Assembly (NCBI GenBank): GCA_001824215.1
Contig: MHWS01000003.1
Coordinates: forward strand, 1 to 41,561
DNA: 41,561 nt
Direction of reading: 5' to 3'
Origin: Candidatus Zambryskibacteria bacterium RIFCSPLOWO2_12_FULL_39_16
GTDB taxonomy: Bacteria > Patescibacteriota > Minisyncoccia > Phycocordibacterales > WO2-35-19
In this document: positions 21,908-33,397 of the stretch, one piece after another
Position numbering within the stretch: position 1 is the first letter of the stretch
How the letters are laid out: every line of letters starts with the position of its first letter
Notes under the pieces: model-generated
Database searches by the model: none
What the model was told of the DNA's origin: nothing
Seen by the model: only the letters and a program-made list of their open reading frames with translations
Program-made: the position numbers and the translations under genes

Positions 21908-21978
21908 TTGCGGGGTTTAGATTTGCACTAAAATTTCAAGGTTATGAGCCTCGCGAGTTACTATTACTCTACCCCGCA
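21908..21978 (-). tRNA. Initiator-like tRNA-Met(CAT), unusual
   Basis: Minus strand: TGCGGGG TA GAGT AATAGTA ACTC G CGAGG CTCATAA CCTTG AAAT TTTAG TGCAAAT CTAAA CCCCGCA A; full cloverleaf; A11:U24. Confidence 0.8.
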
Positions 21979-21988
21979 ATAAGCTTAC

Positions 21989-22016
21989 ATTATATACTCT
22001 TTTGGTTTTTTGGCAA
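21989..22016 (-). promoter_or_regulatory. Promoter of the minus-strand initiator-like tRNA
   Basis: Minus strand TTGCCA - 16 nt - TATAAT, -10 element ends 10 nt before tRNA position 1. Confidence 0.75.
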
Positions 22017-22038: not shown

Positions 22039-22112
22039 GTCGGCGTAGCTCAGTTAGTTAGAGCGTGGGACTCATAAGCCCAAGGTCAGAGGTGCAATTC
22101 CTCTCGCCGACA
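22039..22112 (+). tRNA. tRNA-Met(CAT), elongator-type (tRNA-Ile2 not excluded)
   Basis: gtcggcg...gctc agttagtta gagc...ctcataa...agagg tgcaatt cctct cgccgac a. Confidence 0.9.
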
Positions 22113-22165
22113 CCCTAAGGATTTAGTGGCATTTTTTGAAAAAATCTGCTAAATTTCTCTTGTTT

Positions 22166-22239
22166 GCGGTCGTAGCTCAACTGGTTAGAGCACTCCCCTG
22201 TCACGGGAGAGGTTGCCGGTTCAAGTCCGGTCGACCGCG
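22166..22239 (+). tRNA. tRNA-Asp(GTC)
   Basis: gcggtcg...ctccc ctgtcac gggag...gccgg ttcaagt ccggt cgaccgc g. Confidence 0.95.
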
Positions 22240-22242
22240 CAA

Positions 22243-24493: not shown

Positions 24494-24530
24494 ATAGATT
24501 TTGAGGGATAGTGTGGTAGATTTAGCTATC

Positions 24531-26774
24531 ATGAAATTCAAGATTAAAAGCGGTTTTAAGCCGGCTGGCGACCAGCCGCAAGCAATAGAAAAGCTGGTGG
24601 AAGGCTTAAAAAAAGGTTTGCGTCACCAGACCCTTTTGGGTGTAACTGGCTCAGGTAAGACATTTACAGTAGCAAATGTTATAAATGAAATCCAAAAACC
24701 GACTCTTGTTATCGCTCACAACAAAACTCTGGCTGCTCAGTTGGCTCAGGAATACAGAGAGTTTTTTCCTGAGAACGCTGTGCATTATTTTGTTTCTTAC
24801 TACGACTATTATCAACCGGAAGCATATATGCCGATTTCTGACACTTATATAGAGAAAGAGGCAATGATAAACGAAGAAATAGATCGGTTACGCCATGCTT
24901 CTACCCAAGCCCTTCTGACACGTAAGGATGTTATTATTGTGGCCTCGGTTTCCTGTATTTATGGATTAGGTTCTCCGATAGAATATGAAAAAGTGAATCT
25001 GAAAATTGTAAAAGGAGATAAAATATCTCGGACAGAATTTGTTCGCAGCTTAATTGGTATACATTTTGAACGTACTACCGCAGACCTTTCTTCTGGCCAA
25101 TTTAGGGCGGTCGGCAACACAGTGGAAATAATGCCAGTGTCTGAAAAAGTAATTTACAGAATTGAAATCGATGACGGAATAATAAAAGATATTTTAAAAA
25201 TAGACGCTATTACACGGACCATTTTGGAAAAAATAGAAGCTTTTTTCCTTTTCCCGGCAAAACATTTCATATCCACCAAAGAACAAAATGAAAGAGCTTT
25301 TAAAACAATCAAAACCGAACTGGCGGAGCGCTTAAAACAGCTTGAAAAAGAAGGAAAGCTTTTGGAAGCAGAACGTCTGAAACGTCGCACCAGTTATGAC
25401 TTGGCTCTTATCCGAGAAATGGGCTATTGCAACGGCATTGAAAATTACTCACGCCATTTCTCCGGCAAAAAATCAGGTGAAGCTCCCGATACCTTACTTT
25501 CGTATTTTTCTTCACCGGAAATCAGGGAAAAATTTAGTCCGCTTCACCCTGTCCGCACCAGCGGACGGGACCCTCACGGATCTAAATTTTTCCCTGATTT
25601 CCTTACTATCATTGACGAATCTCACGTCACCGTGCCACAAATTGGTGCAATGTATTCGGGAGATGCATCACGCAAACAATCACTAGTTGATTATGGATTT
25701 CGTCTACCTTCAGCCAAAGATAACAGACCGTTAAAATTTAAGGAATTTGAAGAGAGGGTCGGGCAGGTGATTTATACAAGTGCCACACCGAGCAATTATG
25801 AAAAGGAGCACAGTGAGCAGATAGTGGAACAAGTGATACGACCGACGGGCTTAGTTGACCCGGAAGTTCTGGTGCGCTCAATTACAGAAAGAAAAACCTC
25901 ACCCCCAACCCCTCTCCTTGCAAAGGAGAGGGGAGAAAAAAATAGAATTCCTGAGAACTCGAAGAAACCTTCTCGAGAGCAACTTTCGGAGCGCGACTGG
26001 CACGAGAAGGAGGGGATTTTTCAGCAGAAAAATACCCCGTTTGCTCGAGAGAACGGTTTTTTGGGTTCTTATTCGGGACAAATCGCTGATTTTATTTCCG
26101 AAGCAGAAAAAAGTATAAAAAAAGGAGGCAGAGTTATTGCAACCACTCTTACCAAAAAAATGGCGGAGGATTTGAGCGAGTACTTGAAAGAAAAAGGGAT
26201 TAAAGCTGAGTATTTGCATAGCGGCATAAAAACAATTGAAAGGATTGAAATTTTGACTCGGCTAAGGAAAGGAGAATTCGATTGCATAGTCGGAGTAAAT
26301 CTCCTTCGGGAAGGTTTAGATTTACCGGAAGTGACACTTATAGGAATTTTGGATGCAGACAAAGAAGGCTTTTTGCGTTCGGATACCTCGCTTATCCAAA
26401 TCATCGGCCGAGCGGCCCGAAATGTGGACGGCAAAGTTATTTTGTATGCCGATGTTATGACAGGCTCAATGGAGAGAGCCATAGATGAGACAAATCGTCG
26501 CCGGGAAAAACAAATCATTTATAATAAAAAGCATAACATCACTCCTAAAACAATCATAAAGAAAATCCAGGATATCACCGACCAGTTGCAATCCAAACAC
26601 CAAAAAACAGTCAAGGAACTTTTAACTTTTGACATAAAGACCGAAAAAAATATCAAAGCTCTGATTAAATACAAAGAGAAGCAGCTGAATTCTGCAGCGA
26701 AAATATTGGATTTTGAAACAGCGGCTCTTTTGCGAGATGAGATAAAAGAATTGGAAAAAATAAGAAAAGAGTGA
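24531..26774 (+). CDS. uvrB: Excinuclease ABC subunit B, with two in-frame insertions
   Basis: GDQPQAIEKL, GVTGSGKTFTVANVI, YYDYYQPEAYMP, IDESHVTVPQ, LREGLDLPEV, UVR motif; ATG 24531 preferred. Confidence 0.97.
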   Translation: MKFKIKSGFKPAGDQPQAIEKLVEGLKKGLRHQTLLGVTGSGKTFTVANVINEIQKPTLVIAHNKTLAAQLAQEYREFFPENAVHYFVSYYDYYQPEAYMPISDTYIEKEAMINEEIDRLRHASTQALLTRKDVIIVASVSCIYGLGSPIEYEKVNLKIVKGDKISRTEFVRSLIGIHFERTTADLSSGQFRAVGNTVEIMPVSEKVIYRIEIDDGIIKDILKIDAITRTILEKIEAFFLFPAKHFISTKEQNERAFKTIKTELAERLKQLEKEGKLLEAERLKRRTSYDLALIREMGYCNGIENYSRHFSGKKSGEAPDTLLSYFSSPEIREKFSPLHPVRTSGRDPHGSKFFPDFLTIIDESHVTVPQIGAMYSGDASRKQSLVDYGFRLPSAKDNRPLKFKEFEERVGQVIYTSATPSNYEKEHSEQIVEQVIRPTGLVDPEVLVRSITERKTSPPTPLLAKERGEKNRIPENSKKPSREQLSERDWHEKEGIFQQKNTPFARENGFLGSYSGQIADFISEAEKSIKKGGRVIATTLTKKMAEDLSEYLKEKGIKAEYLHSGIKTIERIEILTRLRKGEFDCIVGVNLLREGLDLPEVTLIGILDADKEGFLRSDTSLIQIIGRAARNVDGKVILYADVMTGSMERAIDETNRRREKQIIYNKKHNITPKTIIKKIQDITDQLQSKHQKTVKELLTFDIKTEKNIKALIKYKEKQLNSAAKILDFETAALLRDEIKELEKIRKE
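25517..25602. repeat. Nested inverted repeat inside uvrB (perfect 21 bp outer arms)
   Basis: ggaaatcagggaaaaatttag ... ctaaatttttccctgatttcc; inner gtccgc-acca-gcggac. Confidence 0.95.
25896..26038. repeat. Composite multi-hairpin insertion inside uvrB
   Basis: cccctctcctt-gca-aaggagagggg (25909-25933); ccttctcg...cgagaagg (25968-26010); ggggatttttc-agca-gaaaaatacccc (26012-26038). Confidence 0.85.
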
Positions 26775-31792: not shown

Positions 31793-31864
31793 GCTGGGGT
31801 AGTTCAGTGGCAGAACGCCGTCTTGGTAAGACGGAGGTCGAGAGTCCGATTCTCTCTCCCAGCT
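31793..31864 (+). tRNA. tRNA-Thr(GGT)
   Basis: gctgggg...ccgtc ttggtaa gacgg...gagag tccgatt ctctc tcccagc t. Confidence 0.93.
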
Positions 31865-31959
31865 CAATTATATTTGGCATTTATTTGTTGGTTTATTAAA
31901 TATAACTGCGGACTATGTTATAAATTTACTTTAGTACGCAGATTGGTTATACTTAAAGC

Positions 31960-32415
31960 ATGTCTAACCCCAAAAAACCAAGAAAAAATTGCCCAGTTTG
32001 CGGAAAAGAACCTTACCGTTCCTACTATAAATATTGTAGTAACGCATGTCAGCAAAAATACCAATCCAGCATTTATGTAGAGAAATGGAAAAAAGACGAA
32101 TTGAGCGGTCTTCAATCTTCAGGTATTGTTACGACATACGTGAAGAGATATCTTCGTGAAAAATATGGAGACAAATGTTGTTTGTGCGGCTGGTCAAAGA
32201 TAAACACAAAATCGAGCGTTGTCCCACTAGTTGCCGACCATATAGATGGCAATTGGAGAAATAATAAAGAAAGTAATCTGCGTTTGATTTGTCCCAATTG
32301 CGATTCTCTCAACCCTACTTATTCTGGATTGAATAGGGGAAATGGTAGAGGGAATAGAGTTATAAGTAAGAGAGCGAAAGAGGGTCGTTTATTTGTTACA
32401 AAAAAGCCAAAGTAG
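31960..32415 (+). CDS. HNH endonuclease-like protein
   Basis: CPVCG...YCSNACQQKYQ; CCLCGWSKIN...ADHIDGNWRNNKESNLRLICPNCDSLNPTY. Confidence 0.85.
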   Translation: MSNPKKPRKNCPVCGKEPYRSYYKYCSNACQQKYQSSIYVEKWKKDELSGLQSSGIVTTYVKRYLREKYGDKCCLCGWSKINTKSSVVPLVADHIDGNWRNNKESNLRLICPNCDSLNPTYSGLNRGNGRGNRVISKRAKEGRLFVTKKPK

Positions 32416-32479
32416 TTCAGTGGCAGAACACTGCTTTCGTAAAGCAGGAACGTGAGTCCGATTCTCACCTTTGGCTCCA
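32406..32479 (+). tRNA. tRNA-Thr(CGT), with CCA encoded
   Basis: gccaaag...ctgct ttcgtaa agcag...gtgag tccgatt ctcac ctttggc t cca; overlaps HNH stop codon. Confidence 0.92.
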
Positions 32480-32485
32480 AAATTT

Positions 32486-33397
32486 ATGGACAAGCAAAAA
32501 ACAGAGCAAAAAATAAAGGAATTGGAAGAGGCGATGATAGAGCCTGATTTTTGGAATAATAAAGATAGAGCCCAGGCTACCATAAAAGAAATCCAAAAAT
32601 TAAAAGATAATTTAGAGGGGGTAGGGCAGTATGACAAAGGAGATGCCGTAATGACTATTTTTTCTGGCGCCGGAGGAGACGATGCCGAAGATTTTTCGGC
32701 CATGCTTTTGCGCATGTATTTTAAATATTTTGAAAAGAAAAAATGGAGCTATTCCGTTTTACATGAAAATAAAAACGACCACGGTGGATACAGGAACATA
32801 ACTGTAGAGATTACCAACCCAACCTTCGCCAAGGCTACGGCGGGTTTCGGTCCTTATGGGACCTTAAAAAATGAATCGGGAGTGCATCGATTGGTCAGGA
32901 TTTCTCCTTTTAATGCAAATCAAAAAAGACACACAAGTTTTTCAATGGTGGAAGTTATTCCTAAGTTTGAGAAACAAAATGAAAACGATATAGAGTTGAA
33001 AGATGATGATTTGAAAGTAGAACTTTCGCGCTCTTCTGGCCCTGGCGGACAAAATGTAAATAAAAGAGAGACAGCGGTTCGTATCGTCCATATTCCAACA
33101 AATCTTTCAGCTCAAGCAGATGGCGAAAGAAGCCAGGCCCAGAATAAAGAAAAAGCCTTGGCCATTTTGAAAGGCAAAATATACAAAGCTTTGGAAGAAA
33201 AAAGAATATCAAAAGAAAAGGGCATGTATATAAGCAAAACCACTGAAATTGAATGGGGTAACCAGATTCGCTCTTATGTCTTGCACCCGTATAAAATGGT
33301 CAAAGACCGCCGTACCGGGGTAGAAACCAGTAATGTGGAAGCTGTATTGGAACAAGGTGAATTAGATGAGTTTATAGAAGCGGAGAAAAGTTTGTAA
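32486..33397 (+). CDS. prfB: Peptide chain release factor 2, short
   Basis: GAGGDDAEDFSAMLLRMY, HRLVRISPF (SPF), SSGPGGQNVNKRETAVRI (GGQ). Confidence 0.93.
   Translation: MDKQKTEQKIKELEEAMIEPDFWNNKDRAQATIKEIQKLKDNLEGVGQYDKGDAVMTIFSGAGGDDAEDFSAMLLRMYFKYFEKKKWSYSVLHENKNDHGGYRNITVEITNPTFAKATAGFGPYGTLKNESGVHRLVRISPFNANQKRHTSFSMVEVIPKFEKQNENDIELKDDDLKVELSRSSGPGGQNVNKRETAVRIVHIPTNLSAQADGERSQAQNKEKALAILKGKIYKALEEKRISKEKGMYISKTTEIEWGNQIRSYVLHPYKMVKDRRTGVETSNVEAVLEQGELDEFIEAEKSL
32821..32846. repeat. Short hairpin element inside prfB encoding PTFAKATAG
   Basis: aacc-tt-cgcc-aaggctac-ggcg-ggtt. Confidence 0.7.

Follow-up and report, generated by a model that had tools for sequence, protein, structure and literature searches.

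Organization of the initiator tRNA locus

The window (the whole 41,561-nucleotide stretch of DNA that was analyzed) carries an initiator tRNA-fMet(CAT) gene on the minus strand at 21908 to 21978, with U1 at 21978 and the discriminator A73 at 21908, as placed by ARAGORN, Rfam RF00005, and comparison with relatives. ARAGORN reported a 71-nt tRNA with the anticodon CAT (21944 to 21946, minus strand; position 33 of the gene, and aligned as such by Rfam), RF00005 matched the gene with 59.3 bits (E value, 1.8e-10), and the minimum free energy fold of the 71-nt tRNA was a cloverleaf (z score of −3.4 relative to shuffled sequences). The minus-strand cloverleaf with CAT that had been read in the initial annotation was thus confirmed.

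In standard numbering, the 5' half of the tRNA reads U1-GCGGGG/UA/G10A11G12U13-AAUAGUA-A22C23U24C25/G26 and the 3' half reads CGAGG-CUCAUAA-CCUUG/AAAU/UUUAG-UGCAAAU-CUAAA/CCCCGC-A72/A73. The anticodon arm, CGAGG-CUCAUAA-CCUUG, spans 21937 to 21953 on the minus strand and was aligned by Rfam with A29-U41, G30-C40, and G31-C39, the AGG/CCU class. The D-loop AAUAGUA (21959 to 21965, minus strand) and the T-loop UGCAAAU (21921 to 21927, minus strand) were numbered from the Rfam alignment and from covariation. The D-loop aligns as A14 A15 U A18 G19 U20 A21, which puts A18 at 21962 and G19 at 21961; in the T-loop, whose earlier reading as TGCAAAT was correct, G55 is at 21926 and C56 at 21925, and U54-G55-C56-A57-A58 forms a UGNRA pentaloop. 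The gene does not encode CCA, as the bases directly 3' of it are CAC.

Two further tRNA genes, both identified by ARAGORN, lie on the plus strand: a divergent elongator tRNA-Met(CAT) at 22039 to 22114, with C11:G24, G1:C72, and A18/G55, and tRNA-Asp(GTC) at 22166 to 22240, which comparison with relatives marks as the third tRNA of a conserved neighborhood.

A predicted sigma-70-like promoter, TTGCCA-16-TATAAT, is located at 21989 to 22016 on the minus strand, and its −10 hexamer ends 10 nt before U1. Eleven of 12 consensus positions were matched, and 300 shuffles gave no site as good, bearing out the promoter proposed in the initial annotation. The closest relative (G003) has TTGCAA-16-TATAAT in the equivalent place, and G002 and G004 retain TATAAT upstream of the initiator, while a simple promoter scan of the upstream region found nothing convincing in G001, G006, G008, and G014. 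Conservation of the promoter sequence beyond the closest relatives is therefore weak.

Other features of the window were recorded in passing. The UvrB frame at 24501 to 26774 (plus strand; 757 aa) contains extra stretches of low-complexity appearance, such as SPPTPLLAKERGE and NTPFARENGFLG, that look like in-frame repeat insertion, and a 21-bp perfect inverted repeat is present at 25517 to 25602. A release-factor-like ORF at 32471 to 33397 (plus strand) includes NPTFAKATAGF, likewise resembling an in-frame short-repeat insertion.

The tRNA is an initiator and is very probably the only one in the genome

The identity of the tRNA was assessed from the positions that distinguish bacterial initiators from elongator tRNA-Met. 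The complete cloverleaf has the anticodon CAT and, as the Rfam alignment confirmed, the A11:U24 hallmark noted earlier, a pair found in 4430/4438 bacterial initiators and 0/2762 elongator Met tRNAs (PMC5143459). It has the formylation determinants G2:C71 and C3:G70 (PMC7949028, PMC9976931) together with A73. Bacterial initiators are either mismatched at 1:72 or have U1-A72 (PMC5143459, Table 2), and the window tRNA has U1-A72 and none of the G:C, C:G, or G.U pairs. At 29-31/39-41, where the allowed initiator set is GGG/CCC, AGG/CCU, AGG/UCU, or GGG/UCC (PMC5143459, Table 4), it has AGG/CCU and not the strict textbook GGG/CCC. Judged by these sequence features, the window tRNA is an initiator tRNA.

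The assembly (539 kb in 26 contigs, estimated to be 94.6% complete) contains 34 tRNAs, and only two of these have CAT: the initiator, with A11:U24, and the elongator 60 bp away, with C11:G24. No other CAT tRNA with R11:Y24 was found in the genome. We considered whether the second CAT gene (22039 to 22114) could be an Ile-CAT (lysidine) tRNA and rejected this, since the gene resembles elongator Met and a tRNA-Ile(TAT) is encoded (G000:C5:4346-4419), which makes an Ile-CAT tRNA unnecessary. With that tRNA-Ile(TAT) present and a third CAT tRNA absent from the assembly, AUA is probably decoded without lysidine.

Of seven genomes of the same genus and family that were studied closely, six had the same gene. 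It was also found across the order, and in relatives of the genus and order it usually lies next to the genes for elongator Met and tRNA-Asp. Its sequence is identical in G003 and near-identical in the rest of the genus, as well as in two other Candidatus Zambryskibacteria records (L101 and L174). The search for a second initiator thus returned a locus conserved in relatives and no canonical initiator elsewhere in the 94.6% complete assembly. The view that this is a functional initiator, and the sole one found, is well supported by sequence comparison, and the window gene is very probably the sole initiator of the genome.

Stem landmarks are mostly ordinary, and the recognition machinery is canonical

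U1-A72 does replace the C1xA72 mismatch, as the initial annotation had observed. The pair is rare but known (63/4438 initiators, or 1.4%, versus 2 elongator Met tRNAs) and is the only Watson-Crick 1:72 pair reported in the surveyed bacterial initiators (PMC5143459). Among 76 distinct initiators of the order, position 1:72 was A.A in 49, C.A in 17, U-A in 6, A-U in 3, and U.U in 1; U1-A72 is fixed in the genus of the window and also occurs in three other families. The reading of only two G-C pairs at 29-31/39-41 likewise held as an observation (A29-U41, G30-C40, and G31-C39). It did not hold as a defect, because AGG/CCU is a known class that accounts for 522/4438 bacterial initiators (12%) versus a single elongator Met (PMC5143459); in the order, 75 of the 76 distinct initiators have A-U at 29:41.

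The components that would read these stems were then compared. The 16S motif UGAAG (G1338/A1339) was present in 42/42 genomes where the motif was found, and the uS9 tail SKR was present in 29/30 genomes, the window's own genome being included in both counts; no compensatory changes for A29-U41 were seen in the uS9 tail (30 genomes) or at 16S 1338/1339 (42 genomes). The genome has a match to Fmt (G000:C14:6390-7142) that, at 177.8 bits, falls below the curated cutoff of 201.5, as it does in many relatives. The initial annotation had proposed that initiation factors and the P site must tolerate an abnormal tRNA. This is largely unsupported, given that AGG/CCU and U1-A72 are known, that Fmt is present, that uS9 SKR and 16S G1338/A1339 are intact, and that the D- and T-loop feature described below is a compensated tertiary swap and not a loss. 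The stem landmarks, as read from sequence, are mostly ordinary and represent known minor variants.

Comparison with characterized initiators places these variants. The E. coli metY/metZ-type initiator shares with the window tRNA CAT, A11:U24, G2:C71, C3:G70, A73, the CUCAUAA loop, G30-C40, G31-C39, G19:C56, and the lack of a strong 1:72 pair. The window tRNA differs from it in having U1-A72 for C1xA72, A29-U41 for G29-C41, a 7-nt D-loop, a 4-nt variable loop, A18/G55 for G18/Psi55, and an unencoded CCA. A29-U41 with G30-C40 is shared with the AGG/CCU initiators (522/4438; PMC5143459) and, as far as the account cited in PMC10568206 describes them, with the unusual initiators of mycoplasmas (AU/GC/GU). 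In M. pneumoniae, altered initiator stems accompany changes in uS9, uS13, and IF3 (PMC10568206), whereas the window tRNA keeps G31-C39, and neither the uS9 tail nor 16S 1338/1339 departs from the canonical form. The U1-A72 initiators of the same survey (63/4438; PMC5143459) have the same pair as the window tRNA, and nothing notable differs between them.

Absence of an Fmt match is associated with a closed 1:72 pair

Some genomes without an Fmt match have initiators with a closed 1:72 pair (G:C or A:U), namely, those of f25 (G032, G244, and G293), f141 (G209), and f36 (G251). A single weak Fmt match in G032 turned out to be PurN. Two more f25 genomes (G299 and G301) agreed, having a closed pair and no Fmt. 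Initiators with A1:U72 were also found in f28 (G247) and f35 (G250), where Fmt or a partial Fmt is present. Initiators with G:C at 1:72, and most of those with A:U, came from Fmt-lacking genomes. Fmt was missing in 5/7 genomes with a closed pair versus 7/101 with an open or U-A pair (Fisher's exact P = 1.3e-4, uncorrected for kinship), and Fmt is present in all genomes with U1-A72, including those of the window's genus. These patterns suggest that formylation maintains the open 1:72 end and that closure tends to follow the loss of Fmt.

The elbow contact 18:55 exists in two coupled states in initiators of the order

The G18-Psi55 contact is taught as near universal in tRNA. The initial annotation had described a D-loop without the G18G19 pair, a claim that was half right: G19 is retained, with its partner C56, while position 18 is altered, jointly with position 55, so that the Rfam alignment gives A18 (for G18) and G55 (for U55). 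Among the 76 distinct initiators of the order, G19:C56 was present in 76/76 and U54:A58 in 75/76, whereas the canonical pairing of G18 with U55 (Psi55) is absent from the window initiator and is replaced by A18 with G55, which covary. Loss of the elbow was rejected as a description, as G19:C56 is invariant in the order and positions 18 and 55 covary.

The covariation was measured with a pattern search of the order in which A or G at position 18 (R18) and U or G at position 55 (K55) were allowed independently. The 76 distinct initiators comprised 45 with A18:G55 and 31 with G18:U55; neither A18:U55 nor G18:G55 occurred among them (0 of 76), although all four combinations were searchable. With a relaxed pattern and further sequences, 108 genomes gave 60 A:G and 46 G:U, plus 2 more G:U by canonical parse. 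The relaxed pattern takes in only genomes whose initiator keeps GGCTCATAACC, which is 112/148, and 36/148 were missed. An apparent A18:U55 in two f25 genomes (D-loop AGTCAGGTA, T-loop TTCAAAT) becomes G18:U55 if it is parsed like AGCCTGGTA. Position 57 tracked the state, being A57 in 43/45 A18 forms and G57 in 26/31 G18 forms. Both elbow states were held by 8/68 families, which would imply at least eight double switches by family count if the families are monophyletic. A separate phylum sample contained 27 G:U, 13 A:G, and no mixed initiators. The 18:55 swap thus appears recurrent and, in the order and phylum samples, perfectly coupled, and this is what looks new here.

A mixed state was seen outside the phylum. 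The initiator of a Chthoniobacter record (L105, at approximately positions 295 to 326) has the D-loop AGCCTGGTA and the T-loop TGCAAAT, giving G18:G55, and was the only clear mixed 18:55 state observed.

The swap is not confined to initiators. The neighboring elongator Met (22039 to 22114, plus strand), on whose A18/G55 the initial annotation was silent, shares it and is the only one of the genome's other 33 tRNAs to do so, and A18/G55 was also seen in elongator Met tRNAs of relatives (L036, L044, L050, L127, L166, L173, and L193). Initiator-like anticodon and T-arms with G55 in GTDB genomes were, among the matches listed, mostly from Parcubacteria, with scattered occurrences in other phyla. 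In dense tRNA clusters of Verrucomicrobia-labeled records (L145, L156, L185, and L186), A18:G55 occurs in Met, Leu, Gln, Thr, and other tRNAs, so the alternative contact extends past initiators; those tRNAs are mobile or clustered extras, whereas the window gene is a single chromosomal initiator.

The 18:55 contact takes a third form, one that is incapable of carrying Psi55, in six tRNAs of the window's own genome (Thr-GGT, Thr-CGT, Arg-TCT, Arg-GCG, Ala-CGC, and Gly-CCC), which have C55 with G18 and the T-loop UCCGAUU. The loci are 31793 to 31865 and 32406 to 32479 in the window (plus strand) and L002, L009, L011, and L026.

D-arms also vary among related initiators. In some initiators of Parcubacteria the D-stem is GUGN (U11:A24 or similar), sometimes with A8, a departure from the near-universal A11:U24 (L066, L096, L119, L155, and L255-type; G255, G279, G290, G294, and G010). 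Two records of the same phylum (L067 and L068; f86) have initiator-like CAT tRNAs with G55 and a strongly irregular D-arm, GG-UAGG-UCUAGUGA-UCUU.

A model for the A18:G55 elbow

A working model was assembled from these features and from known RNA folds. The initiator would be transcribed from its own promoter, receive CCA posttranscriptionally, be charged by MetRS, and then be formylated by the genome-encoded Fmt. The weak U1-A72 pair would open as the usual mismatch does, and in the P site A1339/G1338 of 16S rRNA would read G30-C40 and A29-U41. The elbow would be closed by G19:C56 and by A18 paired with G55 in place of G18-pseudouridine-55.

The UGCAA loop fits the consensus of the UGNRA lone-pair triloops found in rRNAs and riboswitches. 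In those RNAs the G of the triloop commonly pairs with an A from outside the loop, which yields a composite GNRA fold (PMC2258182). In tRNA, the normal place of residue 18 is intercalated between residues 57 and 58 (PMC4810234). Residue 18 therefore sits where the fourth GNRA base would, such that A18 may slot between A57 and A58 and complete a composite GNRA made of G55-C56-R57 and A18. In this model a sheared G55-A18 pair would replace G18-Psi55, and G19:C56 would retain the flat outer face. The window tRNA has the UGNRA sequence (UGCAA) and the covarying outside A (A18). U54-G55-C56-R57-A58 is common to it and to the UGNRA triloops and T-loop motifs, as is covariation of the G with an A from outside the loop (PMC2258182). 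It differs from them in that in the tRNA the outside base is D-loop residue 18 and position 56 also pairs with G19. By this analogy, we infer a UGNRA-type T-loop with a composite GNRA completed by A18.

Alternative explanations

The differences from the textbook initiator at 1:72, 29:41, 18, and 55, together with the unencoded CCA, would be compatible with a degenerate gene in decay, the true initiator being located elsewhere. A pseudogene has next to no chance of being the explanation, since every stem pairs, each departure is typical of the clade, the predicted promoter is strong, there is no further R11:Y24 CAT tRNA in the genome, and the identity with G003 and near-identity in the rest of the genus rule it out by conservation. 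We also give little credence to independent drift of A18 and G55 once the elbow had become relaxed, as might follow from the loss of TruB, the Psi55 synthase. TruB was undetected in 24/60 relatives, the match in the window's own genome is weak, and several other tRNAs of that genome have C55. However, drift does not predict the lack of mixed states in two samples (order and phylum), the eight families that hold both states, or the change of position 57 along with the 18:55 state. TruB was found in 18/27 A18 genomes and 5/10 G18 genomes (P = 0.45, with one weak match counted); its presence showed no association with the state, and loss of the Psi55 enzyme was therefore rejected as the driver of A18:G55.

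Horizontal import of the swap on a mobile or phage-borne array of tRNAs deserves, if anything, even less credence. It would fit the abundance of A18:G55 in dense multi-tRNA clusters of other phyla (L145, L156, L185, and L186), but the initiator is single copy in the conserved Met/Asp tRNA neighborhood, its acceptor and anticodon arms are typical of the clade, and the state flips within many families in which other signs of replacement are absent. A more serious contender, which we regard as possible though not as the likelier account, is that the initiator is ordinary and that its 18:55 change is a permitted alternative already described in older work on suppressor tRNAs. The T-loop is known to act as a trap for purines, and loops of the UGNRA type are common among other RNAs (PMC2258182). 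Residues 18, 55, and 57 of suppressor tRNAs have reportedly been studied by the Steinberg group. Against this, reviews covering the elbow and T-loop modification give 18/55 as G18-Psi55 and do not name A18-G55. An exact literature search for A18-G55 returned no paper, the older suppressor-tRNA work being outside its reach, and priority for the description of A18:G55 is uncertain.

Implications

We consider it highly probable that this organism has a single tRNA-fMet gene with an elbow made of G19:C56 and A18:G55, interchangeable with G18:Psi55 and swapped repeatedly in the order. The broader proposition, that across an order of Patescibacteria the elbow toggles between G18:U55 and A18:G55 through concerted changes at both positions, at least eight times by family count, and that the lineages that lost Fmt closed the 1:72 pair to G:C or A:U, is one that we hold with moderate confidence. 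The Fmt result would provide a naturally occurring test of the reason for the open 1:72 end of initiators. The proposed A18:G55 fold predicts initiators without Psi55 and without Gm18, and A18:G55 and G18:U55 initiators provide ready-made sequence pairs for testing the role of Psi55. A repeatedly reversible natural alternative to the elbow contact in an essential, single-copy tRNA would mean that two coupled positions can change together.
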